Shown one piece after another: positions 1,471 to 22,455 of a stretch of 42,977 bases of DNA. Every line of letters begins with the position of its first letter. Within the stretch, counting starts at the first letter, position 1. A program made the translations under genes and the position numbers. Below the pieces are notes generated by a model. It saw only the letters and a program-made list of their open reading frames with translations. It was not told the origin of the DNA and ran no database searches. Source of the DNA: Ruminococcus sp. (GTDB lineage: Bacteria; Bacillota; Clostridia; Oscillospirales; Ruminococcaceae). The DNA lies in assembly GCA_017542125.1 (NCBI GenBank), contig JAFXXU010000022.1:1-42977 (forward strand), read 5' to 3'.

Positions 1471-1499
1471 TTGATTATCTGTAACATCCGTGCTATAAT
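1471..1499 (+). promoter_or_regulatory. promoter for the first ECF sigma operon
   Basis: TTGATT (1471-1476) and TATAAT (1494-1499) are 17 bases apart, 31 bases before the ATG at 1530. This looks like a housekeeping promoter. A typical ECF-type autoregulatory promoter (AAC-type -35 with CGT-type -10) was not convincingly seen. Confidence 0.75.
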
Positions 1500-1529: not shown

Positions 1530-2066
1530 ATGCTATCTGCTTATATGGCGCTTATCGACAGTAAGCCCCTGCGTAAAGAATTCGAGCGTTTCTACAACGA
1601 CAACCGCCGCCTTGGCATGAGCAAGGCCTATGAGGTGCTGGGCAATATCTCCATGGCTGAGGACGCCCTGTCCGAGGCCTTTTTCAGGCTGGCGAAATGT
1701 TTTCAAAAAGTTCACAATTTGCCTTCTCATAAATTGCAGTCTTATTTCGTTATAATAGTCAGGAACGTATCTATCGCCCTGCTGCGCCGGGAGAGCCGCG
1801 CCGATGTAGTCGAATACGCCGATGAGCACGGTTACGGTCAGGCTCCCGACGAGCTGCCTGACAGCGATGCCGCGGAGCTTGCCCGGTGCATCGGTCTGCT
1901 GGGGGACACCGACAGGGAGATACTGTATCTGAGATTTGAGCTTGAGCTGGACTATGACGAGATAGCCCGCGCCCTGGGCATCACCGAGGACGCCGCCCGT
2001 CACCGGGTACACCATGCCCGGAGCAGGCTCAGAAAGCTGCTTGAGGGGGAGTGTGCGGATGAATGA
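1530..2066 (+). CDS. ECF-type RNA polymerase sigma factor 1
   Basis: This 178-residue protein has the two-domain layout of extracytoplasmic-function sigma factors. A region 2 lies at about residues 15-85, including the EDALSEAFFRLAK stretch and a segment with several aromatic residues. An acidic linker follows, then a region 4 helix-turn-helix at about 120-172 (LGDTDREILYLRFELELDY, then EIARALGITEDAARHRVHHARSRL). It would direct RNA polymerase to a small regulon when released from its anti-sigma partner. The following gene starts inside its last codons (8-base overlap), the classic sigma / anti-sigma arrangement. The target promoters are unknown; the lipoprotein cluster downstream is the natural candidate. 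Confidence 0.9.
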   Translation: MLSAYMALIDSKPLRKEFERFYNDNRRLGMSKAYEVLGNISMAEDALSEAFFRLAKCFQKVHNLPSHKLQSYFVIIVRNVSIALLRRESRADVVEYADEHGYGQAPDELPDSDAAELARCIGLLGDTDREILYLRFELELDYDEIARALGITEDAARHRVHHARSRLRKLLEGECADE

Positions 2067-2727
2067 CAAAAGGCTTGGAACAGCGCTGGCGGAGGTCTGC
2101 GAGGACAGGCTGCTGACCGACAGCGGAGCCCTGCCGGAGGGGTTCGAGTTCTCGGAGGGGTTCGAGCAGAGGATGCGGAGCATCATCGGCACCGAGAGAA
2201 AGCCCTTCCTGCGGGGGAGGCTGAAAGCCGGGCTCATCATCGCGGCGATTTTCGCGGCGGGTTTCTGCCTGGGCATGGCAAGGGAGCCCCTGTGGAACTA
2301 CATCGTACAGCATGATGACGGCGGCAGGAACATCTCTTTCGACGTGAATACGGTCAAGGATCCGAAGAAGAAGATCGAGCAGGTCTACGAGCTGGGCGGC
2401 CTGCCGGAGGGCTACGATCTGGTGTGGGAGTCCTCCAACAGGGAGGCCTGTTCCCGGACATACGGCCTGAAAAAAGGCGACGGCGCGGAGCTTTACAACG
2501 TGATCTTCTTCGGGCAGTATATCCCCTACATCTACTACGACGCCCATTTTTCTGACAATGCCCGGTACTGCTTCGACGAGGATGGCACTCAGTACTACGT
2601 TGACGAAACTCCCGAATGGTCGGGGGCCGTATGGTATCAGGACGGTTATGTGTTCCTTGTTTCCGGCAGTCTGCCCAAAGACAAAATACTTGATTTGTGT
2701 AAAACGCTGAAAAAGTCAGAAAGCTGA
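2059..2727 (+). CDS. single-pass membrane anti-sigma-like protein, DUF4367-like C-terminus
   Basis: I chose the ATG at 2059 because GGGGGAG sits 7 bases before it; the open frame extends further upstream but only inside the sigma gene. The 222-residue product has a cytoplasmic N-terminus of about 56 residues, one hydrophobic segment (about 57-75, GLIIAAIFAAGFCLGMA) and an outside domain. The C-terminal part (tyrosine/tryptophan-rich, ending WYQDGYVFLVSGSLPKDKIL) resembles DUF4367 domains commonly fused to clostridial anti-sigma proteins. Position and overlap make it the likely regulator of ECF sigma factor 1: it would hold the sigma at the membrane until an envelope signal is sensed. No zinc-binding HxxxCxxC motif was seen, so it is not a classic ZAS protein. 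Confidence 0.75.
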   Translation: MNDKRLGTALAEVCEDRLLTDSGALPEGFEFSEGFEQRMRSIIGTERKPFLRGRLKAGLIIAAIFAAGFCLGMAREPLWNYIVQHDDGGRNISFDVNTVKDPKKKIEQVYELGGLPEGYDLVWESSNREACSRTYGLKKGDGAELYNVIFFGQYIPYIYYDAHFSDNARYCFDEDGTQYYVDETPEWSGAVWYQDGYVFLVSGSLPKDKILDLCKTLKKSES

Positions 2728-2767
2728 CCTCATCATCTCACAAACCGGGTGAAAATAACGTTTATAT

Positions 2768-2798
2768 GGGTGCGGAGCGATCCGCACCCGATTTTTTT
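2768..2798 (+). terminator. strong intrinsic terminator between anti-sigma 1 and the lipoprotein array
   Basis: A perfect 9-base-pair stem, GGGTGCGGA (2768-2776) with TCCGCACCC (2781-2789), has a GCGA tetraloop and is followed by seven T (2792-2798). Only 20 bases separate it from the first lipoprotein ATG. The array must therefore be reached by read-through, or from a promoter upstream whose transcript passes this hairpin. Confidence 0.9.
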
Positions 2799-2818
2799 GA
2801 GACAACAAGGAGGTAACT

Positions 2819-3982
2819 ATGAAAAAACGAACTATCGCGCTGCTGTGCGCGGCGGCAATAATGCTGACTGCCTGTACCGGCTCCGATGCAGACGGTTCAA
2901 CCCCTGCCTCTGCTAACGGTACAGAGAGCCGTGTGACCATTGATACTCCAAACGAAGAATATTCGTTTACGCTGGGGCATCCAAAGGATTCGTTTTCCCT
3001 TGATACATCAGCCATGCAGCATATCAAAGCATCTGATGATACCGAAATAGTGATATCACCCCCCGATAAGGTGTACAAGTTTGATTATTCATCAGATGAT
3101 CTTGACTATAATTCCAAACGCGATGCTATAGGAAGGGCTTATCTTGGCAGCAGCTATAACAGCTGTTTCTGGAAAGAGACCCAAGAGAATATCGCCACCG
3201 GTTTCAGGCTTATTGAAGCTGTTTATCAGAGTGAAGACTTTCCCGAGGTGATCTCGCTGACCAACTGCGGCAATTTTGTGTTTCAGCCTCAACCGGGTCT
3301 GCTCACATCGGTCTCGTGGGACGGAGTCGTTATTCAAAACGATGATACGATGTGCGTATTATCGGATAAAAGCAAGACCTCTTACAGCAAGGCTCTGGAA
3401 AGAGCAAATGCGCTGATAAAGGGCTTTGATGAAGCTGTGGGCAGAACAAGCAGCCGCGAACCCGAGGTAAGCTATGACCCGAAAGCAGCGGCAGTCAAGG
3501 TGGAATATCGGCAGGTAGTTCATGAGCTTGATCTCTGTAAGATAAGATATCAGATGCTGTACCCGGAACAGGACACAGATCATTTAGGGCTGTGGAACAC
3601 AGGAAGTGATCCGCAGGAAGAGGTATACCTGTGTTCATCAGACGAAAAAGGCTACTATATCAAGGTCATGGGCGGAACGCTTAAAATCGTCGATAAAGAA
3701 GAATACGATAAAATGATAACTCTTCAGTCAGCACTGGAATATCTTGACAGCGCGGTTGCAGTCTATTTTGATCTCACGGTCAAAAAAGCAGAGCTGAAAT
3801 ACCTGCTCACGACTGAAAAGGGTGAAGTGTTTGACGACGGGTCATTTAATTACAACAACAGCGACGGCATCCCCGTCTGGGAAATAATACTATACAACCA
3901 GCTGGAGCATCAGGACTACGCTTATGTGATGAACGTTCTGAACGGTGAGTATTCGCTGGTGAAACTGAAAGCAAACAATTAA
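2819..3982 (+). CDS. lipoprotein 1 of the array
   Basis: A 387-residue secreted lipoprotein: a lysine/arginine start, a hydrophobic stretch containing LLCAA, and the lipobox LTAC with C19 as the lipidated cysteine. The mature part has two regions shared with its neighbours. The first is a motif near residues 82-105 (VYKFDYSS..DLDY..KRD..GRAYLG). The second is the C-terminal module ITLQSALEYL...AELKYLLTT...IPVWEIILYN...YAYVMNVLNGEYSLVKL. The end of that module recalls PepSY/YycI-type domains, which is a weak resemblance only. An AAGGAGG ribosome binding site precedes the ATG. GC content looks lower than in most of the cluster. Function unknown; the context suggests an extracellular partner of the ABC-2 transporter encoded in the same block. 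Confidence 0.85.
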   Translation: MKKRTIALLCAAAIMLTACTGSDADGSTPASANGTESRVTIDTPNEEYSFTLGHPKDSFSLDTSAMQHIKASDDTEIVISPPDKVYKFDYSSDDLDYNSKRDAIGRAYLGSSYNSCFWKETQENIATGFRLIEAVYQSEDFPEVISLTNCGNFVFQPQPGLLTSVSWDGVVIQNDDTMCVLSDKSKTSYSKALERANALIKGFDEAVGRTSSREPEVSYDPKAAAVKVEYRQVVHELDLCKIRYQMLYPEQDTDHLGLWNTGSDPQEEVYLCSSDEKGYYIKVMGGTLKIVDKEEYDKMITLQSALEYLDSAVAVYFDLTVKKAELKYLLTTEKGEVFDDGSFNYNNSDGIPVWEIILYNQLEHQDYAYVMNVLNGEYSLVKLKANN

Positions 3983-3997
3983 AGAAAGGTGAGAAAT

Positions 3998-5158
3998 ATG
4001 AACATAAGAAAGCTAACAGCCCTGCTGTGCGGGGCGGCAATAATGCTGACTGCCTGTACCGGCTCCGATGCAGACGGTTCAACCCCTGCCTCTGCTAACG
4101 GTACAGAGAGCCGTGTGACCATTGATACTCCCAACGGAGAATATGGATTTACATTTGATCTGCTGGAAAACTCATATGCACTTGATACCTCAAATATGGA
4201 GAAGATAACAACATATGAATATTCAAAGGTCGTGAGAGCCGATATCGACGGTGTATATGAGTTTAACTACTCATTGCCTGACCTTGATTACTACTCTAAA
4301 CGCGAAGCATTAGGGAAAGCCTATTTAGGCGACGCATATGACAGCAGCTGCTGGGAAATTAAAAAAGTTAGCAATACAAAGGAGCTTAGTGCGCAGTATC
4401 TAAGTCTCAGCTCATCTGAAAGCATGACGGCTAATAACTCCGGCGTTTTTTTCTACCGTCCTGACAGCGAAGCGCCTTTTGCACCTACATGGATCGGAGA
4501 GCTTATTGAAGACAACGATGACGCTTATAAATTGACAGATAAAAGCAGCATCACCTACAAGGAAGCAGTTAAAATAGCCGAGGAAGCTTTCAAGCCCTTT
4601 AATGAAGTCATCGATAAAGGCAAAGCATTTGTTCCGACGGTAAGCTACAACGAAGGTCGGGCGATGATCAGGGTGGATTATCAACAGCAGTTTCACGGCC
4701 TTTTAAAATGCTGGGCAAATTCCGCAAATACTCAGTATTCAAGCGAAAAAACTGACGGACTGGGAGTAAGGTCTGCCGCTGGCGATATAACAAAGAGCGT
4801 ATATATCTATTCCTCGGCTGACAAGGGTTACTATATCCGTGTTTTGGGTACTTCAATGGAGCTAAAGGATATCCAAAAATACGATCGGCTGATCACGCTG
4901 CAATCAGCTCTTGAATATCTCGATACCAATTTAGCTCCTAATATGGATATGATACTTAAGAGCGCAAATCTAAGATACCTGCTCACCACCGAGGTCGGAG
5001 AAAAAGATGCTGACGGTTCCTATGTTGCAATGTTCAAGACAGCTATCCCCGTCTGGGAAATAATACTCTACAACCGTGGGGAGCTTCAGGACTATGCCTA
5101 CGTGCTGAACGTTCTGAACGGTGAGTATTCGCTGGTGAAGCTGAAACCGAACAATTAA
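3998..5158 (+). CDS. lipoprotein 2 of the array
   Basis: I chose the ATG at 3998, with AAAGG 8 bases before it; a GTG at 3989 overlaps the ribosome binding site. The 386-residue lipoprotein has lipobox LTAC (C20). A 110-base stretch at 4022-4131 matches lipoprotein 1 (2840-2949) with one mismatch, so the signal peptide and first mature residues are nearly identical. The middle then diverges, keeping the VYEFNYS..DLDY..KRE..GKAYLG motif and the C-terminal IPVWEIILYN / VLNGEYSLVKL module. The gap to lipoprotein 1 is 15 bases, the same as the next two gaps. Like lipoprotein 1 it is AT-richer than the genes after it. It is a recent paralogue; the ligand is unknown. Confidence 0.85.
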   Translation: MNIRKLTALLCGAAIMLTACTGSDADGSTPASANGTESRVTIDTPNGEYGFTFDLLENSYALDTSNMEKITTYEYSKVVRADIDGVYEFNYSLPDLDYYSKREALGKAYLGDAYDSSCWEIKKVSNTKELSAQYLSLSSSESMTANNSGVFFYRPDSEAPFAPTWIGELIEDNDDAYKLTDKSSITYKEAVKIAEEAFKPFNEVIDKGKAFVPTVSYNEGRAMIRVDYQQQFHGLLKCWANSANTQYSSEKTDGLGVRSAAGDITKSVYIYSSADKGYYIRVLGTSMELKDIQKYDRLITLQSALEYLDTNLAPNMDMILKSANLRYLLTTEVGEKDADGSYVAMFKTAIPVWEIILYNRGELQDYAYVLNVLNGEYSLVKLKPNN

Positions 5159-5173
5159 AGAAAGGTGAGAAAT

Positions 5174-6328
5174 ATGAACATAAGAAAGCTAACAGCCCTG
5201 CTCTGCGCAGCGGTGATGATGCTGGCAGGCTGTTCCGAGCCTCCCAAAAACCTCACCGAAAGCAACCCGGACACATTTTCCGCCGAGGAAGGGGAGTTTG
5301 TCTTTGATCAAGACCTGCTCCGGAACAGCGCTTCACTCGACCTTGAGGGAATGGAGCACCTTAAAGCTGCGGAGGATATGGTCATCCTGACTCCGGACAC
5401 AGACAAGGTCTATGAGTTCGGCTACGCATGGACAGACCTTGACGTTTTCTCCCGCCGCGACGAGCTGGGAAAGGTCTTCCTCGGCGAGGACTATGACAGC
5501 AGCCTGTGGAGAGAGGAAAAAGAAACGCTCTATAATGACGAAGAGAAGATAAGAGGGTTCTACGAGCCGAAGGACTGGGAAGGATATTTCATGGCAGACA
5601 CCAATTCTTCGCTCTTTTATCAGACCGACAGGAGTTGGCACCCGCTGGGCAGCCAAAAAAAGACCGACGAGCAGCTCATCGAGGATGACGGTACAGAATA
5701 TAAGCTCTCCGACGGCAGCAGCATCACCTATAATGAGGCCGTGGATATCGCCGACGGGCTGATGGAGGGCTTTGAAAGCGCCTTCGGGAGAGAGAAGGCT
5801 AATGTCACCGAGGTAAGATACGACCCTGACGAAAAAGCCGTGACCGTGGATTATTTTCAGCGGGTACACGGTATGAAGATCTGCGAGATAAGCGAAGAAA
5901 TGGAGATACACGGTCTTGAGCCGTCTTCCGAGGATAAGCTCGGAGCTGCAAACACCCCGAGCAGTCTTTTGAAAAGAGTGTACGTATACGGCAGAGACAA
6001 GGTCTTCTTTCAATTAAGTGGCGGAGAGATCGATACATCGGACATAAACGAATACGACAAGATAATAACGCTGCGGTCAGCTATGGAATGCCTTGATGAT
6101 TACCTTGCAGTGAATATGGAGTTTGAGGTCAGGCGGGCGGAGCTGAAATATCTGCTCACCACCGAAATGGAAGAATTGGACGGCAAGACGGTGTTGTTCA
6201 AACACAAGAGCGGCATCCCGGTGTGGGAGGTAAGGCTTTACAACACCCGCGAGAAGCGGGAATATGCCTACCTGATAAACACCGTAAGCGGGGAGTTCTC
6301 GCTGGTGAAACTGATACCGAACAGCTAA
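5174..6328 (+). CDS. lipoprotein 3 of the array
   Basis: A 384-residue lipoprotein from the ATG at 5174, chosen by the AAAGG site. It has an MNIRKLTALLCAA signal and lipobox LAGC (C20). The first residues are identical to those of lipoproteins 2 and 4, but the mature N-terminus is new and acidic. The shared motif reads VYEFGYAWTDLDVFSRRDELGKVFLG, followed by YDSSLW. The C-terminal module is IPVWEVRLYN ... YLINTVSGEFSLVKL. Base composition is more GC-rich than in lipoproteins 1 and 2. It lies in the 15-base-spaced run of lipoproteins 1 to 4 and is probably co-transcribed and co-translated with them. No enzyme motif was seen. Confidence 0.85.
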   Translation: MNIRKLTALLCAAVMMLAGCSEPPKNLTESNPDTFSAEEGEFVFDQDLLRNSASLDLEGMEHLKAAEDMVILTPDTDKVYEFGYAWTDLDVFSRRDELGKVFLGEDYDSSLWREEKETLYNDEEKIRGFYEPKDWEGYFMADTNSSLFYQTDRSWHPLGSQKKTDEQLIEDDGTEYKLSDGSSITYNEAVDIADGLMEGFESAFGREKANVTEVRYDPDEKAVTVDYFQRVHGMKICEISEEMEIHGLEPSSEDKLGAANTPSSLLKRVYVYGRDKVFFQLSGGEIDTSDINEYDKIITLRSAMECLDDYLAVNMEFEVRRAELKYLLTTEMEELDGKTVLFKHKSGIPVWEVRLYNTREKREYAYLINTVSGEFSLVKLIPNS

Positions 6329-6343
6329 AGGAAGGAGAGAAAT

Positions 6344-7543
6344 ATGAACATAAGAAAGCTAACAGCCCTGCTGTGCGCGGCGGCAATAATGCTGGCGGGC
6401 TGTGCTGAGCCCGACAGCTCATCAGATACCCGGAAGTACGAGTTCAAGCCCTGCACCGAGGTGCTTGCAGAGAAAGACCTCCCGGAGGACGTCTACGGCA
6501 ACCTCATCCTCCCCGCCGGGAGCATCACCCATAGTGCGGAGGCTGTGTATACCTTTGAGGCTGACTGGGGGGATGCAGTCCTCACCGAGAAGCACAGGGA
6601 GACCCTTGCACAGGTGTTAAGCGATTTTACCGGCAAGAGCGTTGATAAAAAAGAGCTTGCCCGGGACGGAAGCTACGGCTACAGATACTCCGACGACGAG
6701 GTCGCAGGGTTCATCGTTTCCACAGGGAGCTTCGGTGTGTCAAGGACAGACAGCGGTACGGCGGTACTGAACAACTACGCCGGGACAGAGCGGGTGATAC
6801 ACCTTGACCGGGGCGAGAATACCGGTATTTCCTACCCGGTGAACGGCGTCAGCTGCTCCGTTGATGATGCTGTGGCTGATTCGGAGGCCTATCTCCAAAG
6901 GCTGGGAATAGAGAAATACTTATCCCCCGGAGAGAGGCTTTCCCCCAAGTGTGTCTCGGTGATAAAGACCTACGGCAGCGTCCCCCGGGAGGACGAAGAG
7001 GTCATCCCCGACACCCAGCCCACCTACTGCTACAGGATATACTACTCGATACTAAAGGACGGCATCCCCTACACCGAGACCGGCGGCATCCCCTCCGAGG
7101 ACGGCAAGGGCTTCCCATACAGCAGCTTCTTCTCTACTGTCATCACCGAAAAGGGAAAGGTCGGTGCTGTGGAGTTTCAGGCCTACATTACCGCCGGGGA
7201 GAAAACTCAGTACAACGGGGAGCTGCTGAGCTGCAAGGGCGCTCTTGACAGGCTCTCGGATTATCTTGCGGAATACAAGGAGTACCAGGTCCCGGAGGTG
7301 GGGGCGGTCTACTGCGCCATAGCCCGGGAGGGTGACGGAAAGCTCAGTTACCGCCCTATGTGGCGGGTGATACTGGAGGAATACCCCGAGGATGCAAATA
7401 TACAGCTCCTCGTGAACGCCGCCTACATAGATATGATAAACGGAGATATTTACGTCTTTGACGACTCAAAGGCTCAGATGACCGGCACGGATAAGTCGGT
7501 CACGGGCCCGGCTCAGAATCTGACCCGGAAGGTGATACCATGA
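6344..7543 (+). CDS. lipoprotein 4 of the array
   Basis: A 399-residue lipoprotein with the same start (MNIRKLTALLCAAAIMLAGC, C20) and GGAAGGAGA as ribosome binding site. The mature part is more diverged. It keeps a VYTFEADWGD segment, the LSCKGALDRLSDYLAEYKEY helix region, and a C-terminal YRPMWRVILEEY / YIDMINGDIYVF module comparable to IPVWEIILYN / VLNGEYSL in lipoproteins 1 to 3, with extra residues after it. Its stop overlaps the ATG of the first permease (ATGA), so translation is coupled to the transporter. That coupling is good evidence that lipoprotein and transporter act together. Confidence 0.85.
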   Translation: MNIRKLTALLCAAAIMLAGCAEPDSSSDTRKYEFKPCTEVLAEKDLPEDVYGNLILPAGSITHSAEAVYTFEADWGDAVLTEKHRETLAQVLSDFTGKSVDKKELARDGSYGYRYSDDEVAGFIVSTGSFGVSRTDSGTAVLNNYAGTERVIHLDRGENTGISYPVNGVSCSVDDAVADSEAYLQRLGIEKYLSPGERLSPKCVSVIKTYGSVPREDEEVIPDTQPTYCYRIYYSILKDGIPYTETGGIPSEDGKGFPYSSFFSTVITEKGKVGAVEFQAYITAGEKTQYNGELLSCKGALDRLSDYLAEYKEYQVPEVGAVYCAIAREGDGKLSYRPMWRVILEEYPEDANIQLLVNAAYIDMINGDIYVFDDSKAQMTGTDKSVTGPAQNLTRKVIP

Positions 7544-8415
7544 AATTCCTGCACACTCTGAAACAAGACCTGAACAAGACCCTGATAAACGGCGGTTTTG
7601 CGGCGGCGGCACTGATGACCTGCGTGCTGTGCTTCACGGCCTCCGCCTACCGCGACAACTCCAACGACAAAAGCTACTCGGTGTTCGAGGCCTTCTTCTC
7701 CTTTGAGCGGCGGTTCATCGAGACCAACGACGAGTTCGCCTCCATTCGGCTTTTCGGAAACGGCCTCTCGGGGTACATCACCATGTTCATCCCGATCATC
7801 GTGGCGTTCCCCTTTATGGTGTCCTTCTGCGCCGAGCGAAACAACGGCCTGATGCGCTTTACGATCACGCGCTCCGGCAAGCTCAGATACTATCTGTCCA
7901 AATTTACGGCCTCGTTCCTCTCCGGCGGACTGGCTGTGATGATAGGGCTGGCGCTCTACGGCGTGATAGTCTGGATAGCCTTCCCCTCCATCGACAGCTA
8001 CGGCCTCGACCCCGAACAGCTGAGCTGGTCGATCCCCGACGGCGTGTTCGTCTCGGTGATGCGAAACCTGCTGGCGGCCTTTATCTACGGGGCTTTTTCC
8101 ACGCTGCCGGCGTTTTTCCTCTCGTCGTTCTGCAAGAACCCCTACATCATCACCTGCCTGCCCTTCATGCTGGTCTACGTGTGGAACACGGCGATCAACA
8201 AGCTTATGATGAAGGCCTTCGAGACCGGGGATTTTGAGATATATGAAAAGCTCTCCCCCTTCACCCCCGACTCCCCCCGGCAGCTGGCGTATATCAGCTT
8301 TTCCGGGATCACAGAGGCGCAGAAGAAAATGCTGATCTTCAACGGCGCGTATCTTTTTGTGCTGCTCATCGGGTTCATAGTCATTATGAACCTGCGGACG
8401 GATAAGGGAAATTGA
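7540..8415 (+). CDS. ABC-2 type transporter permease A
   Basis: This 291-residue integral membrane protein has about six hydrophobic segments: near residues 17-34, 75-92 (MFIPIIVAFPFMVSF), 125-150, 175-195, 205-225 and 268-286. An N-terminal segment is followed by a long extracellular loop, as in ABC-2 permeases of the BcrB / LanE-LanG kind. The CAERNNGLMRFTITRSGKLRYYLSKF stretch after the second helix is the typical cytoplasmic coupling region (limited by design to a short quote: RSGKLRYYLSKF). It starts inside the last codon of lipoprotein 4, and permease B follows 15 bases later with its own AGGAGG site. The pair would form the membrane channel for the ATPase at 14018. Substrate unknown. 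Confidence 0.85.
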   Translation: MKFLHTLKQDLNKTLINGGFAAAALMTCVLCFTASAYRDNSNDKSYSVFEAFFSFERRFIETNDEFASIRLFGNGLSGYITMFIPIIVAFPFMVSFCAERNNGLMRFTITRSGKLRYYLSKFTASFLSGGLAVMIGLALYGVIVWIAFPSIDSYGLDPEQLSWSIPDGVFVSVMRNLLAAFIYGAFSTLPAFFLSSFCKNPYIITCLPFMLVYVWNTAINKLMMKAFETGDFEIYEKLSPFTPDSPRQLAYISFSGITEAQKKMLIFNGAYLFVLLIGFIVIMNLRTDKGN

Positions 8416-8430
8416 GGAGGTGCCGCCGAT

Positions 8431-9303
8431 ATGAAAAAATTAAACTTCAAACAAGCCTTTTCCTGTGCCCGGACGGAGTTCGTCAAGTGGGTCTGCGACG
8501 CACGAATGATGATCCTCGGGGTACTGCTGATATTCATTTACAGCTTCGCCATAGAGCCCCTTTTGAAGAACGCCGAGGAAATGGGCGAGCCGCTGAACAT
8601 CCTCGAGCCCTTTATCGCCATAGCCAATTCCGGCGCCATACTGCTGATAATACCCCTGGTGTTTCTGACCCTCATCGCCGACTTCCCGAAGATCGACACC
8701 AACACGGTGTTCTACATAATCCGGGTGGGCAGGGTCAACTGGCTGCTGGGGCAGATCATCAAGCTGGTGATGATGGCGCTGTCTTACCTTGCTTTCATAT
8801 TTGCGGGTGCAGTCATCCCCATGATCGGGCGGGGTTTCTGGTACAACGGCTGGAGCAACGTAGCCACGCAGTTTGCGGTGCGCTTCCCGGAGAAGTCCGG
8901 CAACTTCGGCGTGCAGCTGCTGCCGGAAAATCTTTACAATCAGCTGACGGTTTTTTCGGCGGCGATACAGAGCTATCTGCTGGTCTTCGCCTATCTTATG
9001 ATAATCGGACTGCTGCTGCTGGCCTTCTCCCTGGTGAAGAAAAAGACCATGGGCTTTGTCCTCTGCGGCGCGGTGATCTCCCTCGGGACGGCCTTCTGTT
9101 CGATCAAAACGGTTCTGATGTGGTCGATGCCCATGGCGAACAGCATCATCTGGCTGCACTTCACCAAGTACTTCCGGCAGCCGGTGGTATCCCTCGGCTT
9201 CTCGATCGGCTACCTGTGTACATTCATCGCAGTGCTGATAGTATTCTGCGTGGCGGCTATAAAGAAATTCAACTATGACAATGTGGCGGAGATAGCGACG
9301 TGA
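8431..9303 (+). CDS. ABC-2 type transporter permease B
   Basis: This 290-residue membrane protein is the same size as permease A but clearly diverged. About six hydrophobic segments are visible, including MMILGVLLIFIYSFAI near residue 30, a long one at about 65-85, LAFIFAGAVIPMIG near 125, and three in the C-terminal half ending GYLCTFIAVLIVFCVAAI. Different paired permeases and one ATPase are the arrangement of LanFEG and BcrAB-type exporters. GAGGAGG lies 10 bases before the ATG. The next gene, lipoprotein 5, starts 15 bases after its stop. The direction of transport cannot be proved from sequence, but ABC-2 systems generally export. Confidence 0.82.
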   Translation: MKKLNFKQAFSCARTEFVKWVCDARMMILGVLLIFIYSFAIEPLLKNAEEMGEPLNILEPFIAIANSGAILLIIPLVFLTLIADFPKIDTNTVFYIIRVGRVNWLLGQIIKLVMMALSYLAFIFAGAVIPMIGRGFWYNGWSNVATQFAVRFPEKSGNFGVQLLPENLYNQLTVFSAAIQSYLLVFAYLMIIGLLLLAFSLVKKKTMGFVLCGAVISLGTAFCSIKTVLMWSMPMANSIIWLHFTKYFRQPVVSLGFSIGYLCTFIAVLIVFCVAAIKKFNYDNVAEIAT

Positions 9304-9317
9304 AAGGAGAAAACGAT

Positions 9318-10454: not shown

Positions 10455-11560
10455 TATTAAGAAAATCAATAGCTCTGCTCTGCGCGGCAGCCCTCCTTGC
10501 CTCCTGCGCCGACGTTCCGGAGGATGTCAAAACCTCTGCCGGGAGCAGCCCGGCGGACAGTACGGCAGCTTCTGCTGCGGAGGCTCCGGCGGGTGACAGC
10601 ACCGCCGAAAGCAGCGCCTTCGGGGAGTATGACAACATCAAATTCGCCCCGACCTTCGCGGTCTGCCCCGGTCAGCCTGAGGATATCGGCATCTATGAGG
10701 CCCAGCGCCGCACCGACCTGACTGAGCACTCGGAGGAGATATTCAAGGCCTTCTTCGGTGAGGACTTTGACAGTGCCGGGACGGTCAAAACTGAAACTGA
10801 TGTGAGCTTCGCCCATGACGGCATAGAGCTGCACGTCGTACCGAACTATATCTATTTCACCGACAGAAACGAGGCGGGCAAAAACCTCACCTATACCAAC
10901 GACGACACCCTCGAAGCGCTCTGCGAGGTCACCGACAGCTTTATGGACGAACGCCTCGCCCTCGCTGAGGGGGAGGCGACTGTGGGGGAGCTGAGCTCCC
11001 GGCTGGAGGGCTTCGTCGCCGGGCTGAAGGAGGCCGGGCTGGGCGAATACCGCCCCTTCACCCTGTCCTCGCTGACCAACGCCAAACAGGGGCGCAGCCT
11101 GCCCACCACCCTGCTCACCTACCGCAAGTACTTCAAGGGGCTGCCGGTGTTCAACCTCAATTACTGCTCCCGGACCGGCGAAGCTCCGGAGCTCAGCTAT
11201 AAGCTTATCGAGAGCGATTCGGTGAGCTTTGTATCTGCGGACAGGTTTTTCTCGGGGGGCTTTTCCTCGGAGTACACCGAGGTTCGCCGGGTCGGGGAGG
11301 CTGACAGCATCCTCACTCCGGAGCAGGCCGTGGAGACCGCCAGCCGGGAGCTTGCGGCGTATCTCGATCTCACCGCCCTGCGGCTCGACCTGGTGTATGT
11401 GCCGGTCATCCCGGAGGGGGCGGCGGACAACAGCGAAGTCACCCTTACTCCCTACTGGCAGCTGGCCTTCGGCTTGCAGCCCCTGTCGGAGCACTACGCC
11501 CTGATAAACGCCCTCACCGGCAAGGTGATCTATTATGAGGAAAGGAGAGAGCAGTCATGA
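10451..11560 (+). CDS. lipoprotein 6 of the array
   Basis: A 369-residue lipoprotein: MILRKSIALLCAAALLASC (C19), then a low-complexity Ser/Ala/Pro/Glu-rich linker to about residue 60 that would space the domain from the membrane. The folded part has IFKAFFGEDFDSA in place of the FLG..YDSS motif. It has the LTPEQAVETASRELAAYLDL helix and the C-terminal LTPYWQLAFG / YALINALTGKVIYYEE module. It overlaps lipoproteins 5 and 7 by four bases at each end (ATGA), which implies coupled translation. GC content is high. No catalytic motif was seen. Confidence 0.83.
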   Translation: MILRKSIALLCAAALLASCADVPEDVKTSAGSSPADSTAASAAEAPAGDSTAESSAFGEYDNIKFAPTFAVCPGQPEDIGIYEAQRRTDLTEHSEEIFKAFFGEDFDSAGTVKTETDVSFAHDGIELHVVPNYIYFTDRNEAGKNLTYTNDDTLEALCEVTDSFMDERLALAEGEATVGELSSRLEGFVAGLKEAGLGEYRPFTLSSLTNAKQGRSLPTTLLTYRKYFKGLPVFNLNYCSRTGEAPELSYKLIESDSVSFVSADRFFSGGFSSEYTEVRRVGEADSILTPEQAVETASRELAAYLDLTALRLDLVYVPVIPEGAADNSEVTLTPYWQLAFGLQPLSEHYALINALTGKVIYYEERREQS

Positions 11561-12702
11561 GATATAGGAGGGTTATCTCGGTGATGCTTGCGGCGGTGAT
11601 GCTCGCCGCCTGCGGCGCCTCCCCGGAGAGCGGCGAGGCATCCCGGGAGGACTTGGGGGAGGGCAGGGAGCGACTGAGCCTTTCGGAGATGAAAACGACT
11701 GCGGCTGAGGAATCCCGCCGGATAACCGAGAGCAGCTATGACAACATCACCGTGACACCGGGACTGAGCTTTACCGTGCCGGACAAGCTGGGGCAGTACC
11801 AGGTGAAGCCTGCCAAAAACTTCGGCGCCGACACCTGGGAGGCGTTTTTGCAGGAGTTCATCCCCGCCGGGGACTACGATCCCTCCAAGACCGCAGAATA
11901 CTCCGAGCCCTATCACACAAAAGTCTACTCGGACACGGAGAAGCATTATTTCTTCTGCCTTGCCAGTCCCGGCATCTGCAACGCAGACTATCTTGACGAT
12001 CGGGCTTTCGGAAAGGTCTTCGCCTCTGACCGGAACGACAGCTGTGTACTTCACGAGCCTGTAAAAAGCGTCGGGAACAAGCCTTTCAAGCTCGAAAAGG
12101 GCACCCTCGACCTGTCGGAGTACGCGGAAAAATGCCGCAGCTTCGCGGAGCGGTTCATCCGCGTCACCGGCTTTCCCAACGGTCTCGAGCCCGGTGCGGT
12201 CTATGTTTACGACGGGGGCGACGGCACATATTCCTGCGACCTGCATCTTCGCAACAGCATTGAGGGAGTGCCGATATTCGATGTTATCCCCGTCAGCCTT
12301 GCGGAGGAAATGAGCTTTACACCTGCCAAGACCTTCGGGGCACATTGTGCGTGCGTTTACGAGGGCGAGGTGGAGTGCTTCCAGCTCGACCAGGGCTTCG
12401 AGATATGTAAGACCGACGCGGAGTACACCGAGCTTATCAGTCCCAGCCATGCGCTTGAGCTGCTCAGCGAAAAGCTGTCAGCCTATGTCAATTATGAGCT
12501 GATAGACATGGAGCTCTGCTATATGCCGGTATGCCTGAACCCCCTCGGCGAGGACGAGACCCCGCCCGAGGACTACGAAGCGATATATCAGCTTACGCCC
12601 TACTGGTCGTTCTGCTTTGACCTCACCCCCGGTAATGAAAAGTTCGGCTTCGTAAACTGCCAGACCGGCGAAGCGGATATGTTTGTGAGCAGGAGGGATT
12701 GA
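11557..12702 (+). CDS. lipoprotein 7 of the array
   Basis: A 381-residue lipoprotein with lipobox LAAC (C19) and a short charged linker. The recognisable family segments are GQYQVKPAKNFGADTWEAFLQEF followed by YDPSK (quoted in part: DTWEAFLQEF), ISPSHALELLSEKLSAYVNY, and the C-terminal LTPYWSFCFDL / FGFVNCQTGEADMF module. It is translationally coupled to lipoprotein 6, and AGGAGG at 12691-12696 serves the next gene. Divergence from lipoproteins 1 to 3 is large, so the paralogues are of different ages. Ligand or partner unknown. Confidence 0.83.
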   Translation: MRYRRVISVMLAAVMLAACGASPESGEASREDLGEGRERLSLSEMKTTAAEESRRITESSYDNITVTPGLSFTVPDKLGQYQVKPAKNFGADTWEAFLQEFIPAGDYDPSKTAEYSEPYHTKVYSDTEKHYFFCLASPGICNADYLDDRAFGKVFASDRNDSCVLHEPVKSVGNKPFKLEKGTLDLSEYAEKCRSFAERFIRVTGFPNGLEPGAVYVYDGGDGTYSCDLHLRNSIEGVPIFDVIPVSLAEEMSFTPAKTFGAHCACVYEGEVECFQLDQGFEICKTDAEYTELISPSHALELLSEKLSAYVNYELIDMELCYMPVCLNPLGEDETPPEDYEAIYQLTPYWSFCFDLTPGNEKFGFVNCQTGEADMFVSRRD

Positions 12703-12706
12703 TGAT

Positions 12707-14002
12707 ATGAAAGCAAGAAAAATAACAACTCTGCTCTGCGCGGCAGTGATGCTCGCCGCCTGCGAGGATGTCCCGGAGAATTTGCAGTCGCGGGACAGCG
12801 AGCTTAACAACACAGAACAGGCCGAGCTAACGCTGCAAAAGGGGGATCTCGACACGATACGCAGCTGTCTTGCGGCGGATGCCTCCAAAAAATACGGAAC
12901 TATCACCGTCAAGCACGCCTCGGCGGGAACTGCGGCTGAAATGCCTGTGTACAAGGTCGAAGTCGGCGGCGGGGACTATACGGTGAAGGAGCTTGCACAG
13001 TATCTCTACGGCGATAAATACGACCTTGAGGATCAGTCAAAATACGATATCCGCCCCTGGGATTTCAACGGCGCCGAGCCCCAAAAGAACACGGACAAGT
13101 ACACCCCGGAGATAGATTATATCCCCTTTGCGATCTACTATCAGGTGGATACCTGTACTCCGTCGGAGGATGATGCCACCCGTTCGGTGCATATCTTCTC
13201 CAACGGCACCTGCTGGGGAGCGCAGGCGGGGCTCTATGAATACGGAAATGATTACGACGCGCCCTGGCTGGGTACAGTTAAGGCGCACTACTGCCCCGAA
13301 TATGAGGATATCTCGGCGGTGTCATATAGGATGTACGACGGCACCGAATGGCCTCTTGCGGACGCGGTGAAGTTCACCGAGGACTTCTGGAACGGAGAGC
13401 TTTCCAAAAACGACCCGCAGAAATTCCGCTACAAGGTATGGAGGGCGGAGGTGATTGACCTGCCCACCAATGACAATTACGGCTATCTGTTCATGATGTC
13501 CTGCGAGGACGAGTCCGGGAACCGCTATGACTGCGACTGCTACGACAACTTTGCGCTTATGGATAAACGGGTATATGAGGGCAAGCGTTTCTTTATAGCT
13601 CAGAATCAATGGCAGCTCAGTCTCAAAAAGGACGAGATAACAAGATTTGATAAGGCGTTTTCATTCAAGAAGACCGATACAGTGAGCGCCGGTAAGGAAC
13701 TGCTGACCCTCGGCGGTGCTATGACTGTTTTGCAGAATGAGCTGGCGGAGTTTATCGACTATGACTTCGAGACCGCAGAGCTTTGCTATTTGGTCACCTG
13801 CGACAAATACCCCGACAAGGACTACGGCGGCGTGCTGAAATACAGTCCCTATTACTGCACGAAATTCTGCGAGACCGTCATCAGACCCTACTGGTGCTTC
13901 CGCACCACAAACGGCTTTATCGACAACTGGAACACCACCGAGAATTACTACGTTGACGCCGTCACCGGCGAGATGATACATATAAAGTTGGGAGCGGAAT
14001 GA
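12707..14002 (+). CDS. lipoprotein 8 of the array
   Basis: At 431 residues this is the longest array member. The signal MKARKITTLLCAAVMLAAC gives C19 as lipidated cysteine. It keeps VYKVEVGGGDYTVKELAQYLYGDKYD in the N-terminal half (key: LYGDKYD), LTLGGAMTVLQNELAEFIDY, and IRPYWCFRTTN / YYVDAVTGEMIHIK at the end. An extra, aromatic- and cysteine-containing middle region accounts for the added length. It has a strong AGGAGG site and is followed 15 bases later by the transporter ATPase, so lipoproteins 5 to 8 sit exactly between the permeases and their presumed ATPase. Confidence 0.83.
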   Translation: MKARKITTLLCAAVMLAACEDVPENLQSRDSELNNTEQAELTLQKGDLDTIRSCLAADASKKYGTITVKHASAGTAAEMPVYKVEVGGGDYTVKELAQYLYGDKYDLEDQSKYDIRPWDFNGAEPQKNTDKYTPEIDYIPFAIYYQVDTCTPSEDDATRSVHIFSNGTCWGAQAGLYEYGNDYDAPWLGTVKAHYCPEYEDISAVSYRMYDGTEWPLADAVKFTEDFWNGELSKNDPQKFRYKVWRAEVIDLPTNDNYGYLFMMSCEDESGNRYDCDCYDNFALMDKRVYEGKRFFIAQNQWQLSLKKDEITRFDKAFSFKKTDTVSAGKELLTLGGAMTVLQNELAEFIDYDFETAELCYLVTCDKYPDKDYGGVLKYSPYYCTKFCETVIRPYWCFRTTNGFIDNWNTTENYYVDAVTGEMIHIKLGAE

Positions 14003-14017
14003 TAAGGAGGTAAAACT

Positions 14018-14656
14018 ATGAACATCATCGAAGTAAAAGACCTTGACCTAACCCTCGGCAAGACACAGATCCTCAAAAACATCAGCGTGAGCTTTGAGGA
14101 GGGGAAGATACACGGCCTTATCGGGCGCAACGGTTCGGGGAAGACCATGCTGATGAAATGCATCTGCGGGTTCATCAAGCCCACCCGCGGCGAGGTGATC
14201 GTGGACGGCAGGCGCGTGGGGAAGGAGGTTGACTTTCCCAAGGATATGGGTATAATAATAGAGACGCCGGGTTTCATCCCCTACTACTCCGGATATAAAA
14301 ATCTGAAACTGCTTGCCGGCCTCAATCACAAGATCGGCAAAGAGGAAGTCCGGGAGAGTATGCGCATGGTGGGGCTTGACCCCGACCTGCGGCGGCACGT
14401 TAGAAAGTACAGCCTCGGTATGCGCCAGCGCCTGGGGCTCGCACAGGCGATCATGGAAGACCCGAAAATACTCATCCTCGACGAGCCCTTCAACGGCCTT
14501 GACAAAGAAGGCGTTGCCGAGATGCGCGAGTATCTTCTCGGCTACAAGGAGCAGGGCAAGACCATCCTGATCTGCTCCCACTCTGCCGAAGATATATCCG
14601 TCCTCTGCGAGACGGTGCATGAGATGGACAAGGGGATCATTGAGAGGGTGCAGTGA
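14018..14656 (+). CDS. ABC transporter ATP-binding protein
   Basis: This 212-residue cytoplasmic ATPase has the full set of ABC motifs. Walker A is GRNGSGKT near residues 37-44, the signature is YSLGMRQRLGLAQAI near 130-144, Walker B is ILILDEPFNGLD near 151-162, and a switch histidine lies in LICSHSAED. Its short length and lack of a C-terminal extension fit the BcrA / LanF type that pairs with ABC-2 permeases. It would power the permeases at 7540-9303, which are 4.7 kb upstream; no other permease is in the block. AAGGAGG precedes the ATG. The following lipoprotein begins 11 bases after its stop. Confidence 0.93.
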   Translation: MNIIEVKDLDLTLGKTQILKNISVSFEEGKIHGLIGRNGSGKTMLMKCICGFIKPTRGEVIVDGRRVGKEVDFPKDMGIIIETPGFIPYYSGYKNLKLLAGLNHKIGKEEVRESMRMVGLDPDLRRHVRKYSLGMRQRLGLAQAIMEDPKILILDEPFNGLDKEGVAEMREYLLGYKEQGKTILICSHSAEDISVLCETVHEMDKGIIERVQ

Positions 14657-14667
14657 GGCAGGAAGAT

Positions 14668-15714
14668 ATGAAACTGATATCATTGGCGAGGATGACCGGG
14701 CTGGCGGCGGTGCTGCTGCTCACCTCCTGCGGCTCCGACGCTTCCCCGGAGAGCGCCTTATCAAGTGAGGCCGCTTCCTCCGAAACCGTCTTCGCACCTG
14801 ACAGCCCGGCCTCGGCAGCGCAGGAGCTGACGCTCTTTGACGCTGACATAAAGGGCTATGACGGCGAGGTGCTTTCCTTTGAGTTCGCCGGGGAGACATA
14901 CAGCGTGCGGTTCGATCACAGGAAATTTGCCGGTGACGATACCGCGGATGCAGCTATTCCCCGCAAGTGCCTTTCAGAGGAGATCATAAACAACCCCCTC
15001 GGCGAGGCGGTGAAGGCAAGGCTCCGCGCCCGGGCAGACTTCTCGTATATCGAGTACTGTGACGTGGTATCGGTCAACGGCAGAGTCCTCACAAACCCCA
15101 TTGACCCCGCCCGCACTGCGCCTGCGCCGCAGGAGCAGCTGGACTACACCCTCAGGCGCACCGGGGGAACAAAATGCACGCTGCAAAACTGCGACTACAC
15201 CTTCGAGATCGACGTCCAGGCCCTGCCCATGTACATGAAGGAGATCTACCGCGACGAGCTGAGCCCTGTGTTCTTCCGGGGTTATCAGTTCACCGACGGC
15301 AGGTTCATGATCTATGAGCTGTTGACCTACCCTGTCACCGACGAATACGGTCAGCTCGTTTACAGCATCGGCACCGACGATTATGTGACCGAAAACTGCC
15401 TTGGCTTCGTCGGCACAGTACAGAGCGTTGAGGGAGAGACCGCACGCATCCTGCTTGGCGACGGCGTGACGGCTTGCAGCGTCCCGGTGTATTTCAGCGA
15501 CGGAGAAGTGTCCCCCGGGCAGGATGCGGTGATCTTCATAAACGACACCGCCGAGCTTTTGGGCAGCGGCGGGGACAAGACCTATGACTTTGCCCTTGTC
15601 TACACCGACTTGGTGAGTCTCGGCCTTGATCCGGAGGCGCTGGCGGCTGCTGAGTATATCATTCCGAAGGATTTTTGCTGCGGCAGGTTCGAGACGGCAT
15701 CCGCCGGGCTGTAA
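14668..15714 (+). CDS. lipoprotein 9, not of the array family
   Basis: I chose the ATG at 14668 with AGGAA before it; a GTG at 14653 overlaps the ATPase stop and would give a poorer signal peptide. The 348-residue product has a signal peptide ending LLLTSC (C21) and a Ser/Ala/Glu-rich linker. The mature domain appears beta-rich and lacks the array motifs, with segments such as YDGEVLSFEFAGETYSVRFD, YIEYCDVVSVNGRV, and ARILLGDGVTACSVPVYF (quoted as short marks only). It closes the plus-strand run before the second sigma operon. Role unknown; co-expression with the transporter is likely from spacing. Confidence 0.8.
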   Translation: MKLISLARMTGLAAVLLLTSCGSDASPESALSSEAASSETVFAPDSPASAAQELTLFDADIKGYDGEVLSFEFAGETYSVRFDHRKFAGDDTADAAIPRKCLSEEIINNPLGEAVKARLRARADFSYIEYCDVVSVNGRVLTNPIDPARTAPAPQEQLDYTLRRTGGTKCTLQNCDYTFEIDVQALPMYMKEIYRDELSPVFFRGYQFTDGRFMIYELLTYPVTDEYGQLVYSIGTDDYVTENCLGFVGTVQSVEGETARILLGDGVTACSVPVYFSDGEVSPGQDAVIFINDTAELLGSGGDKTYDFALVYTDLVSLGLDPEALAAAEYIIPKDFCCGRFETASAGL

Positions 15715-15802
15715 GATTTACACACAGTTCATAACTTTTTGCCGGGAAAACGCCAAATACTGAGTGAGAGCGCTCGAAACCACACCGAAGGGAGATGACG
15801 GC

Positions 15803-16330
15803 TTGGACGCGAAAGCAGAGTTTGAAAAGCTCTATGAGCTGACGAAACGCACAGTCTACAACTACATAGTCTCGAAGTGCTTCAATATCGACGATACCGA
15901 CGATATCTTTCAGAACACCTACCTTGAGCTTTACTCCACGCTGACGCGCCGCACCCAGCCGCCGGAGGATCCTTTCGGGTATGTCATGGTCATCGCGGGC
16001 AGACAGCTGACGAGGTATTACTCTTTCATCCGGCGTATGCGGGGCAGACTGAGCATCGACCGCGACCCTGCGGGAGAGGAGCTGCCTGACGGCAGCTTTG
16101 ACCTGGAGGACAGCTTCACAGACCGCTGCACCGCTGAGCAGATCGCCGAGATTATAAAGGAAAAGCCGCTGCTGACTCAGAAGGCGTTTTTCCTGCACTA
16201 CAAGCGCGGCCTGACGCTGTCCGAGACTGCCTCGCTGCTGGGTATCAGCGAGGCATCGGTCAAGAAGCACATCTATACGACCCTTGCCGAGATAAAGAGA
16301 AAGCTTGAAAAGGAGGACAAAAATGGATGA
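15803..16330 (+). CDS. ECF-type RNA polymerase sigma factor 2
   Basis: I chose the TTG at 15803 because GGGAG ends 8 bases before it; the GTG at 15764 in the same frame has no such site. The 175-residue product has region 2 at about 5-75 (AEFEKLYELTKRTVYNYIVSK and DDTDDIFQNTYLELYSTL; key words DIFQNTYLELY). A region 4 helix-turn-helix lies at about 115-170 (KAFFLHYKRGLTLSETASLLGISEASVKKH; key words LSETASLLGISEASVK). It is not a close copy of sigma factor 1. Its anti-sigma partner overlaps by 8 bases. It may control the lipoprotein cluster upstream together with or instead of sigma 1. Confidence 0.88.
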   Translation: MDAKAEFEKLYELTKRTVYNYIVSKCFNIDDTDDIFQNTYLELYSTLTRRTQPPEDPFGYVMVIAGRQLTRYYSFIRRMRGRLSIDRDPAGEELPDGSFDLEDSFTDRCTAEQIAEIIKEKPLLTQKAFFLHYKRGLTLSETASLLGISEASVKKHIYTTLAEIKRKLEKEDKNG

Positions 16331-17372
16331 CAGAGAGCTTATGAAAACAGTATACAGCCGCCCCTGCGCCGACGAGCTGGATGCGCAGCAGATACTCTCC
16401 CGGATTTCCGAAAGAGCCGAGGTAAAGAGCCGCGCACCGGTGTATGCAGCTGCGGCGGCTGCGGCTGCTGCCATAGGCATAGGCACAGCCGTGATAGTCA
16501 GCAATATGTCGGTGCCCAAAGATGACAGCTCCTCACAGCCGCCCCGTGATATGGCTGCGGTCGTAGCCGCCGAAAGCGCCGCTGACGAAAGCGCCCCGGA
16601 GGAAAGCAGCGTCATCGACAGCGTTGATACAAGCAGCATCCCCGAAACAGACAGCATATCATCCTCCCCCGAAAGCATCCCCGAAGCATCTGAGCCGGTC
16701 AGCTCTGAGGACAGCTCCGAGACCGAAGAATACGGCGAGGTCATCATCTCCGAACCCCTGCAAGCTGAAATGGATGCCCACGCTAACGACCCCGACCGGC
16801 AGTACCCGGTACGGGTGACCCGGAGCGACCCCTGGCAGAATCTGACCTACTGGTTCTTCCCCTACTCAATGATCAAAGAAGGCGCTTGCCTTGCCACGGC
16901 GGAGCAGCTGCGCAGTCTCACCGGTATCGAGGGCGCGGACGTCACTGTTAAGCTGTCCTCCGAGACCGACTCCGTCTGGGACGCTTTTCTCAACACCTAT
17001 TACCGTGCGGAGATCAAGGTGGATGAGGACTGTATAAACGCTATGGGCGAGGGGGATATCCGGGTGGAGATCAACCTCAACACCCACGACGAGAAAGAGA
17101 AAGCTCTTGCTGAGATCAACGCCCTCGAAGACACTGTCCCCTATGACGAACTGCGGACGCGAAAGCTCGACGCCATGAAAGAGATACACGACAGGGCGCT
17201 TTCGGAGCTTATCGCCGAAACAGGTCTTGACAGAGCGAAGATAGTCATAGACAGCGGCTTCACATCCTCTGTCTACATAGATGCAGACAGGGAGCTGCTC
17301 AGGAAGATATACAACAGCAAGGTCGTTGGAAACATAATGCTGCTGGCTGAGATACGGGGCAGCGACTTCTGA
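16323..17372 (+). CDS. membrane anti-sigma-like protein 2
   Basis: The ATG at 16323 is fixed by AGGAGG at 16311-16316. The 349-residue protein has a cytoplasmic N-terminus of about 38 residues and one alanine-rich membrane helix (about 39-60). A long Ser/Glu/Pro-rich outside stalk follows (about 63-140), then a folded domain of about 200 residues with many charged residues and no domain I can name. The arrangement (overlap with the sigma gene, one helix, sensor outside) is that of ECF anti-sigma proteins in Clostridia. It differs from anti-sigma 1, which has a DUF4367-like sensor, so the two pairs probably read different signals. Confidence 0.75.
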   Translation: MDDRELMKTVYSRPCADELDAQQILSRISERAEVKSRAPVYAAAAAAAAAIGIGTAVIVSNMSVPKDDSSSQPPRDMAAVVAAESAADESAPEESSVIDSVDTSSIPETDSISSSPESIPEASEPVSSEDSSETEEYGEVIISEPLQAEMDAHANDPDRQYPVRVTRSDPWQNLTYWFFPYSMIKEGACLATAEQLRSLTGIEGADVTVKLSSETDSVWDAFLNTYYRAEIKVDEDCINAMGEGDIRVEINLNTHDEKEKALAEINALEDTVPYDELRTRKLDAMKEIHDRALSELIAETGLDRAKIVIDSGFTSSVYIDADRELLRKIYNSKVVGNIMLLAEIRGSDF

Positions 17373-17382
17373 AAACACGCAA

Positions 17383-17419
17383 AAACGGTATATCCGGGCG
17401 GATATACCGTTTGTTTTTT
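17383..17419. terminator. bidirectional terminator between convergent operons
   Basis: AAACGGTATATCC (17383-17395) pairs perfectly with GGATATACCGTTT (17400-17412), with loop GGGC. T-rich tails lie on the plus side (TTGTTTTTTG), and five A before the stem give a T-tract on the minus side. It ends both the sigma 2 operon and the minus-strand partner-switching operon. Confidence 0.92.
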
Positions 17420-17850: not shown

Positions 17851-17862
17851 CGGCATCACCTG

Positions 17863-18159: not shown

Positions 18160-18193
18160 AGCGGTTTCCTCCTGTTTATTATGATCGTTTTGT

Positions 18194-19987: not shown

Positions 19988-20060
19988 TCTCCTGCCATTC
20001 CTTTCCTGCCGGTCACTTAGCCGGTGCAAGCCTGACTGTCATACCGATTTGTTACCCTAT

Positions 20061-20374: not shown

Positions 20375-20414
20375 AAACACTAAGCGGCAGGTGTACAGCG
20401 TGCACCGCGCAACT

Positions 20415-20449: not shown

Positions 20450-20476
20450 TGTTTGGCTGCGGAATTAAAAAAAGAC

Positions 20477-20506: not shown

Positions 20507-20513
20507 ATGAGTA

Positions 20514-22442: not shown

Positions 22443-22455
22443 GATCAGCTAAGTT

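Follow-up and report, generated by a model that had tools for sequence, protein, structure and literature searches.

A Ruminococcus lipoprotein array built around a LanFEG-like exporter and flanked by sigma factor genes

What purpose is served by nine lipoprotein genes gathered around a single exporter? The question is raised by a 42,977-nucleotide stretch of DNA from a gut Ruminococcus sp. (GenBank assembly GCA_017542125.1, contig JAFXXU010000022.1; hereafter the window), in which one block encodes nine lipoproteins (LP1 to LP9), an ATP-binding cassette (ABC) transporter and, at either end, an extracytoplasmic function (ECF) sigma factor with a candidate anti-sigma partner. To answer it we draw on the anatomy of the block, its conservation and linkage among relatives, the fold of a modelled lipoprotein, ECF domain fusions, a shared promoter motif and the fast divergence of the lipoproteins. 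The regulator-like fold, together with the fusion of the same domain to a sigma factor in the same genome, points to a set of sensors for the envelope more than to self-immunity of the ordinary kind. We give an even chance to the view that the block is a conserved envelope module, in which a LanFEG-like exporter is combined with interchangeable sensor or adaptor lipoproteins and ECF signalling.

Anatomy of the block and fold of its lipoproteins

A check of open reading frames in the window showed that all 16 genes, spanning 1530-17412, are open, lie on the + strand and follow the order given in the initial annotation: ECF1, anti-ECF1, LP1-LP4, permease 1, permease 2, LP5-LP8, the ABC ATPase, LP9, ECF2 and anti-ECF2. 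Some details of that annotation required correction. Position 2059, taken as the start of the block, is the start of anti-ECF1, ECF1 itself occupying 1530-2066, and the spacing described throughout as 15 bases or ATGA overlaps fails at anti-ECF1/LP1 (91 nucleotides) and at LP9/ECF2 (49 nucleotides). The features are as follows.

1471..1499, +, putative sigma-A-type promoter TTGATT-17-TATAAT 5' of ECF1 (a single site, 10/12 consensus matches)
1530..2066, +, ECF sigma factor 1 (ECF1); Sigma70_r4_2 45.2 bits and Sigma70_r2 34.3 bits, each exceeding its cut-off
2059..2727, +, anti-ECF1 candidate; one transmembrane segment (residues 55-73), C-terminal DUF4367 at 23.2 bits (cut-off 22.1)
2738..2766, +, ECF-type promoter motif TCACAAA-N14-CGTTTATA, from a pattern scan
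2767..2798, +, terminator-like hairpin (2767-2790, 10 pairs) with T-run, located at the predicted start of the array transcript
2819..3982, +, lipoprotein LP1 (blastp network)
3989..5158, +, lipoprotein LP2 (blastp; 48% identity to LP1)
5165..6328, +, lipoprotein LP3 (blastp network)
6344..7543, +, lipoprotein LP4 (blastp network and tree)
7540..8415, +, permease 1 (PERM1), ABC-2-like; PF12679 at 21.5 bits, below the 27.2 cut-off; five transmembrane segments in a crude scan
8431..9303, +, permease 2 (PERM2); six transmembrane segments in a crude scan
9318..10454, +, lipoprotein LP5 (blastp network)
10451..11560, +, lipoprotein LP6 (blastp network)
11557..12702, +, lipoprotein LP7 (blastp network)
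12707..14002, +, lipoprotein LP8, structure modelled and its fold compared
14018..14656, +, ABC ATPase; closest NCBIfam family is lantibiotic protection, below its cut-off
14229..14256, +, sigma-A-like site TTGACT-16-TATAAT within the ATPase gene; 11/12 matches, best of 15 sites
14653..15714, +, lipoprotein LP9 of an unrelated family; OB-like domains in a weak model
15764..16330, +, ECF sigma factor 2 (ECF2); Sigma70_r4_2 29.4 bits (cut-off 25.7), Sigma70_r2 15.9 bits, below its cut-off of 24
16323..17372, +, anti-ECF2 candidate; one transmembrane segment, no family match
17383..17412, +, terminator-like hairpin closing the block; 13-pair stem with T-run

Both ECF genes match the sigma-70 family above curated cut-off, and the ATPase belongs clearly to the ABC type. 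The sigma factors carry regions 2 and 4 only, with region 2 of ECF2 scoring low as listed, and each adjoins a candidate anti-sigma partner with a single transmembrane segment. One ATPase and two distinct small permeases per operon is the LanFEG arrangement, here with weak or absent permease family scores. Of the two ABC-2 permeases originally proposed, PERM1 is ABC-2-like with weak family support, while PERM2 has no Pfam match. The broader proposal of a LanFEG-like core whose lipoprotein has multiplied and diversified, with ECF genes at both ends, is supported.

In blastp comparisons LP1-LP8 are all linked as paralogs, with 16-48% identity to LP1, and none of the nine lipoproteins reaches any Pfam cut-off. 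LP9 has no blastp link to LP1-LP8 at an expectation value (E) of 1e-3 and belongs to a separate family present in further loci, so that the description of eight paralogs stands and that of nine alike does not. Two longer proteins in other loci (L078:7731-9761, 677 amino acids; L196:12586-14787, 733 amino acids; loci are cited by number and coordinates) match the LP1-LP8 family and the LP9 family within one chain. The modelled structure of LP8 shares the fold of YycH, YycI and YpeB, and on this model LP1-LP8 are assigned a YycH/YycI/YpeB (PepSY-like) fold. By sequence, the lipoproteins and their profiles gave short signal-peptide or weak matches only against the PDB. No lipoprotein of the window gave a YycI match at E up to 1; such a match was reported for 6 of the 65 lipoproteins drawn from the window and the permease-2-profile loci described below. 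Lipoprotein matches were listed above 200 amino acids and 30 bits, and the lipoprotein tree comprises 108 non-duplicate sequences of 340 to 560 amino acids, with L085 omitted.

Linkage and divergence among relatives

The initial annotation had named in advance a point on which it could fail, namely transporters in related genomes without lipoproteins and lipoproteins elsewhere. Searching with a permease-2 profile brought up 41 loci, spread over Ruminococcus, Lachnospiraceae and relatives, and the linkage survived: a lipoprotein lies within the operon in 38 of the 41 (one in 24, two to seven in 14). In the window's genome, members of the family are also encoded at a distance from the transporter. 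The remaining three are L089, L096 and L124, the last at a contig edge, where a lipoprotein fragment of 91 amino acids at the contig end was left uncounted. Among the counted loci, one of the three lipoproteins of L100 is a 71-amino-acid fragment and L125 has a partial permease match. The 41 come from an operon table of 53 rows; ten of the other 12, some of which repeat genomes already among the 41, also carry a lipoprotein, the exceptions being L027 (contig edge) and L212.

The gene order recurs in other species, which indicates more than chance. In genome G143 (2 contigs, 99% complete), an ECF1-type pair, lipoproteins, an LP9-type gene, permeases and ATPase follow in that order, and the layout is therefore not a product of assembly. 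PERM2 was found in 26/148 sampled family genomes at E 1e-10 and in 12/41 relatives, own genome included, and the complete chromosome record of R. bicirculans 80/3 has two transporter copies. At E 1e-8 the lipoprotein family occurs in 11/16 genus genomes and gives 19 matches in the genome of the window, including one sigma fusion. Close to the start of another contig, the own genome has the system a second time (L024:163-5154, contig C80), comprising two permeases, an LP6-like gene, an ATPase and an LP8-like gene.

The lipoproteins diverge far faster than the transporter. Across 12 chosen loci, identity to the window is 69-94% for permease 2, 84-93% for the ATPase (11 loci with a value) and 48-86% for permease 1, compared with 17-52% for the best lipoprotein matches, which are local identities, some over short alignments, with the 52% coming from the own genome's second copy. 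A closer relative, G010, is 97.9-99.2% identical to the block in aligned pieces and lacks LP1 and LP3, the junctions falling in direct repeats that span gene ends and signal peptides. The missing LP1 and LP3 could reflect true deletions or a collapse of the repeats during assembly. The G010 flank is 100% identical (rounded) to window 18000-34000, and the two may represent one strain or a shared contig.

The surroundings of the block hold further elements. Directly 3', on the - strand at 17437-20029, the genes look by eye like a partner-switching set: an RsbW-like kinase, a STAS protein resembling RsbV and a phosphatase of the SpoIIE type. Dispersed repeats, ~60-170 bases long and found in many copies throughout G010, lie at ~20080-20285 and 33900-34000, and 36422-42884 appears by eye to be a mobile element that would encode a TraG/VirD4-like ATPase at 39155-41224 and, at 41691-42884, a serine recombinase.

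Sigma factor fusions and a candidate promoter before the array

The lipoprotein domain is found in a second setting that bears directly on its role. In four distinct proteins an ECF sigma factor (residues ~10-210) is joined through a hydrophobic segment to the lipoprotein domain, which was detected with fusion-free profiles at E 4e-31 to 1e-60. They occur in the own genome (L154), in G010 (L082) and in G013 (L023, the same as L091, and L156). None of the neighbours of the L154 fusion matched the two anti-sigma profiles used. Because the fusions neighbour different lipoproteins in the tree, fusion or fission of sigma factor and lipoprotein has probably occurred more than once. In addition, at least five proteins fuse an ECF sigma factor to an FtsX-type ABC permease in single open frames of 1117-1182 amino acids; in the four of these five that were scanned, both sigma regions and FtsX score above Pfam cut-off.

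L154:7212-9068, ECF sigma-transmembrane-lipoprotein-domain fusion, own genome, contig C63
L196:6050-9451, ECF-FtsX fusion, G143
L198:9939-13364, -, ECF-FtsX fusion, G143
L200:5821-9171, -, ECF-FtsX fusion, G143
L164:1532-5077, ECF-FtsX fusion, followed by an ATPase and a family lipoprotein
L083:3174-6614, ECF-FtsX fusion, followed by an ATPase and a family lipoprotein

The G143 fusions lie no more than ~7 kb from an array operon. A frame of 1178 amino acids in G014 stands outside this tally, and an ECF protein of 1100 amino acids in L208 gave no FtsX profile match. The lipoprotein domain is present in three settings: as a free array lipoprotein, as the outer domain of a tethered sigma factor, and beside sigma-permease fusions. 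Given its place as the external portion of a sigma factor and its occurrence next to a fusion of sigma factor and transporter, this domain is most simply read as a sensor or adaptor.

Tethered-type ECF factors were found in 13/148 family genomes at E 1e-30. Further long proteins of the same ECF family, all on the - strand, are encoded at L162:17684-19057, L202:5576-7606, L202:10107-12053 and L203:9291-10703; their extensions matched no lipoprotein profile, nor FtsX where tested. Membrane-tethered ECF factors have been catalogued (IutY, ECF48/52/53), and the ECF262 group includes a Ruminococcus albus member with a regulatory extension, according to the review PMC8999054; some of the tethered-ECF side may thus already be catalogued there. 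Our literature search, which left subscription papers largely outside, found no description of this array or of the ECF-FtsX fusions among the papers listed.

How might the block's own sigma factors control the array? The gap between anti-ECF1 and LP1 contains the motif TCACAAA-N14-CGTTTATA, immediately followed by the hairpin. The motif has a single match in the window, with 0 mismatches, where 0.17 are expected at up to 2 mismatches and 15/100 shuffles gave at least one. The hairpin is the strongest by G-C pairs of 21 terminator-like sites (15.3 expected). In the simplest reading, transcription of ECF1 and its partner would stop at a terminator, and the array would have an ECF-type promoter of its own. 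A sigma-A-type scan of the window gave 15 sites against 9.4 expected, and the one in the ATPase gene is a possible internal start for LP9, ECF2 and anti-ECF2. Of the two switches initially proposed to control the array, the first is backed by the motif before LP1, while no ECF-type promoter was found before ECF2. Two other patterns were rejected: a generic ECF pattern, TAAC...GTC, had 17 window matches and zero at ECF1 or ECF2, and a second promoter pattern gave 11 matches in the genome versus 5 in the control and missed the window's own site.

In 1.14 Mb of loci the strict motif has 5 matches (4 distinct), each directly 5' of its cluster's first lipoprotein, and across 16 genus genomes it has 18 matches against 6 for a reversed control, 7 of the 18 lying within ~100 nucleotides 5' of a family lipoprotein. 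A looser form gave 15 matches in the 1.14 Mb, 8 just 5' of lipoproteins (6 distinct) and 7 elsewhere, mostly intragenic, and 7 matches in a further 431 kb, 1 before a lipoprotein and 4, by position, within ECF coding sequence. Similar layouts of motif and hairpin between anti-sigma gene and array, some with motif variants, occur in L072, L082, L093, L099, L155, L196 and L200, and among 13 sites compared 8 both follow an anti-ECF gene and show a hairpin (imperfect in L155). The motif also precedes lipoproteins in L068 (own genome), L080 and L019, with no ECF pair directly upstream and no hairpin. Sites in L078 and L023 are without the second half of the motif, and the G143 arrays show, by eye, the variants TCACGTT or AGTTTATA.

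A proposed envelope-sensing module, its rivals and known systems

These observations would fit the following course of events. A sigma-A promoter would provide ECF1 and its membrane anti-sigma factor, an envelope signal would release ECF1, and ECF1 would transcribe the array by reading TCACAAA-N14-CGTTTATA. The surface-anchored lipoproteins, with their predicted YycH/YycI/YpeB fold, would serve one LanFEG-like exporter of two permeases and one ATPase, acting as extracytoplasmic sensor or adaptor subunits that respond to a ligand or to the state of the envelope and signal to the transporter and the ECF pathway. Contact with the transporter would perhaps be made through permease 1, the faster-diverging of the two permeases. 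ECF2, at the array end, would add a second step, expressed from the array transcript or an internal promoter, and the output would presumably guard against wall- or membrane-active compounds. We also put forward, more tentatively, a wider scheme of kinase-free signalling in which swappable extracytoplasmic YycI-fold domains and ABC transporters switch ECF sigma factors; the window array would then be a diversified receptor repertoire, growing and shrinking by recombination at signal-peptide repeats.

A number of results weigh against the sensing module. For the fold, YycH, YpeB and YycI surfaced only in a second look and none through Foldseek under E 0.001, a lipoprotein of L094 scored 27.9 bits against the curated YycI family (cut-off 29.7), and lipoprotein profiles found no YycI or YycH among PDB sequences. 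Family members occur alone, distant from any transporter, also in the own genome. For the regulation, ECF and anti-ECF genes are both in the operon run in just 5/41 loci (L085, L088, L093, L099 and L123), with a divergent ECF pair in L101, an ECF gene alone in L105 and an anti-ECF gene alone in L119. ECF control is therefore not part of the core; it is an added layer, and most single-lipoprotein loci have no adjacent ECF gene. The motif was derived from part of the sites it explains (L068, L080, L019 and L155 excepted), 11 of its 18 genus-wide matches do not adjoin a lipoprotein, the further 431 kb gave 2 strict matches with 1 before a lipoprotein, and the ECF-pair junctions of L079, L123 and L159 are without it. 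A separate LP9-ECF2 start from the 11/12 sigma-A-like site is conceivable, and draft assemblies are the source of the window and of most relatives.

Among the rivals, broad-spectrum immunity fares best, though we consider it unlikely. Each lipoprotein would be a LanI-like decoy for one bacteriocin or wall-active peptide, which the exporter removes, with no sensing involved. Such a role would suit the two permeases, lipoproteins that diverge around a constant exporter, a copy number that varies among near-identical relatives, and an ATPase nearest to the lantibiotic-protection family TIGR03740. The ATPase, however, scores 170.6 bits against that family's cut-off of 309.75, the lipoprotein fold is known from regulators, and a simple decoy leaves unexplained why ECF sigma factors should carry the domain as their external portion. 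Immunity families were absent among the Pfam and NCBIfam matches shown, NCBIfam having been run on LP1, LP4, LP5, LP8 and LP9; LanI did not appear in the fold list, which carries no weight either way. The initial annotation saw no modification gene in the block; genome-wide, a LANC_like search had no match in the own genome (90.5% complete), a search whose control was positive in 1/14 genomes and which a resistance-only locus would also leave empty. The LanI reading found no support in the ATPase score or in the LanC-like search, and the kinship to LanI initially drawn is not supported, the lipoproteins having the predicted YycH/YycI/YpeB fold. An anti-phage reading fared no better with PADLOC-DB 2.0.0: six of the 7 proteins searched (of 16) had no match at E 0.001, and the ATPase matched only other ATPases, in 15 families (best mad3, 93.2 bits).

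Envelope maintenance, in which a lipid or wall component made by the cell itself would be the exporter's cargo and the lipoproteins would be homeostatic partners, as YycH and YycI are for WalK, strikes us as improbable: fold kinship and the lack of adjacent ECF genes in most loci agree with it, while the patchy occurrence of PERM2 noted above and the far faster divergence of the lipoproteins do not. Protease control, with the lipoproteins as PepSY- or propeptide-like inhibitors of extracytoplasmic proteases (for example anti-sigma cutters) and the transporter as partner, is the least probable of the three.

If the envelope-sensing module is correct, gut and rumen Bacillota would gain transporter-linked sensing that works through ECF factors in place of two-component systems. 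Its receptor part would differ across relatives around a constant exporter, and a large family of lipoproteins, in which Pfam matches are few, would acquire a fold and a testable role.

Set beside known systems, the window shares with LanFEG/LanI one ATPase, two small permeases, an operon lipoprotein and an ATPase closest to TIGR03740; it differs in its 8+1 lipoproteins, eight with a predicted YycH/YycI-like fold, in its ECF genes and in the absence of a LanC-like gene from the genome. Unlike YycH and YycI (WalK regulators) and YpeB, its lipoproteins are lipid-anchored, arrayed and associated with ECF factors and an ABC exporter. The 16 proteins of the block include neither a kinase nor a response regulator, so that a WalRK linkage is missing. 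The closest known entries include PDB 5coz, the uncharacterised protein EUBREC_2869 of Eubacterium rectale. With BceAB-BceRS the system has in common the concept of a transporter feeding a switch, as described in PMC7828314. It differs in its ABC-2-like permeases, lipoproteins and ECF factors, and its block genes include no FtsX-type permease with a two-component system; the ECF-FtsX fusions of relatives stand closer to Bce-type modules than the window array does. Tethered ECF factors (IutY, ECF48/52/53, ECF262; PMC8999054) likewise join a sigma factor to a transmembrane segment and an outer domain; here a member of the array lipoprotein family takes the outer position, or an FtsX permease forms the extension. 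The features tested set the window system apart from LanFEG/LanI, from a YycHI linked to WalRK, from Bce modules and from the phage defences listed in PADLOC; it has the appearance of a sensing module linked to a transporter.

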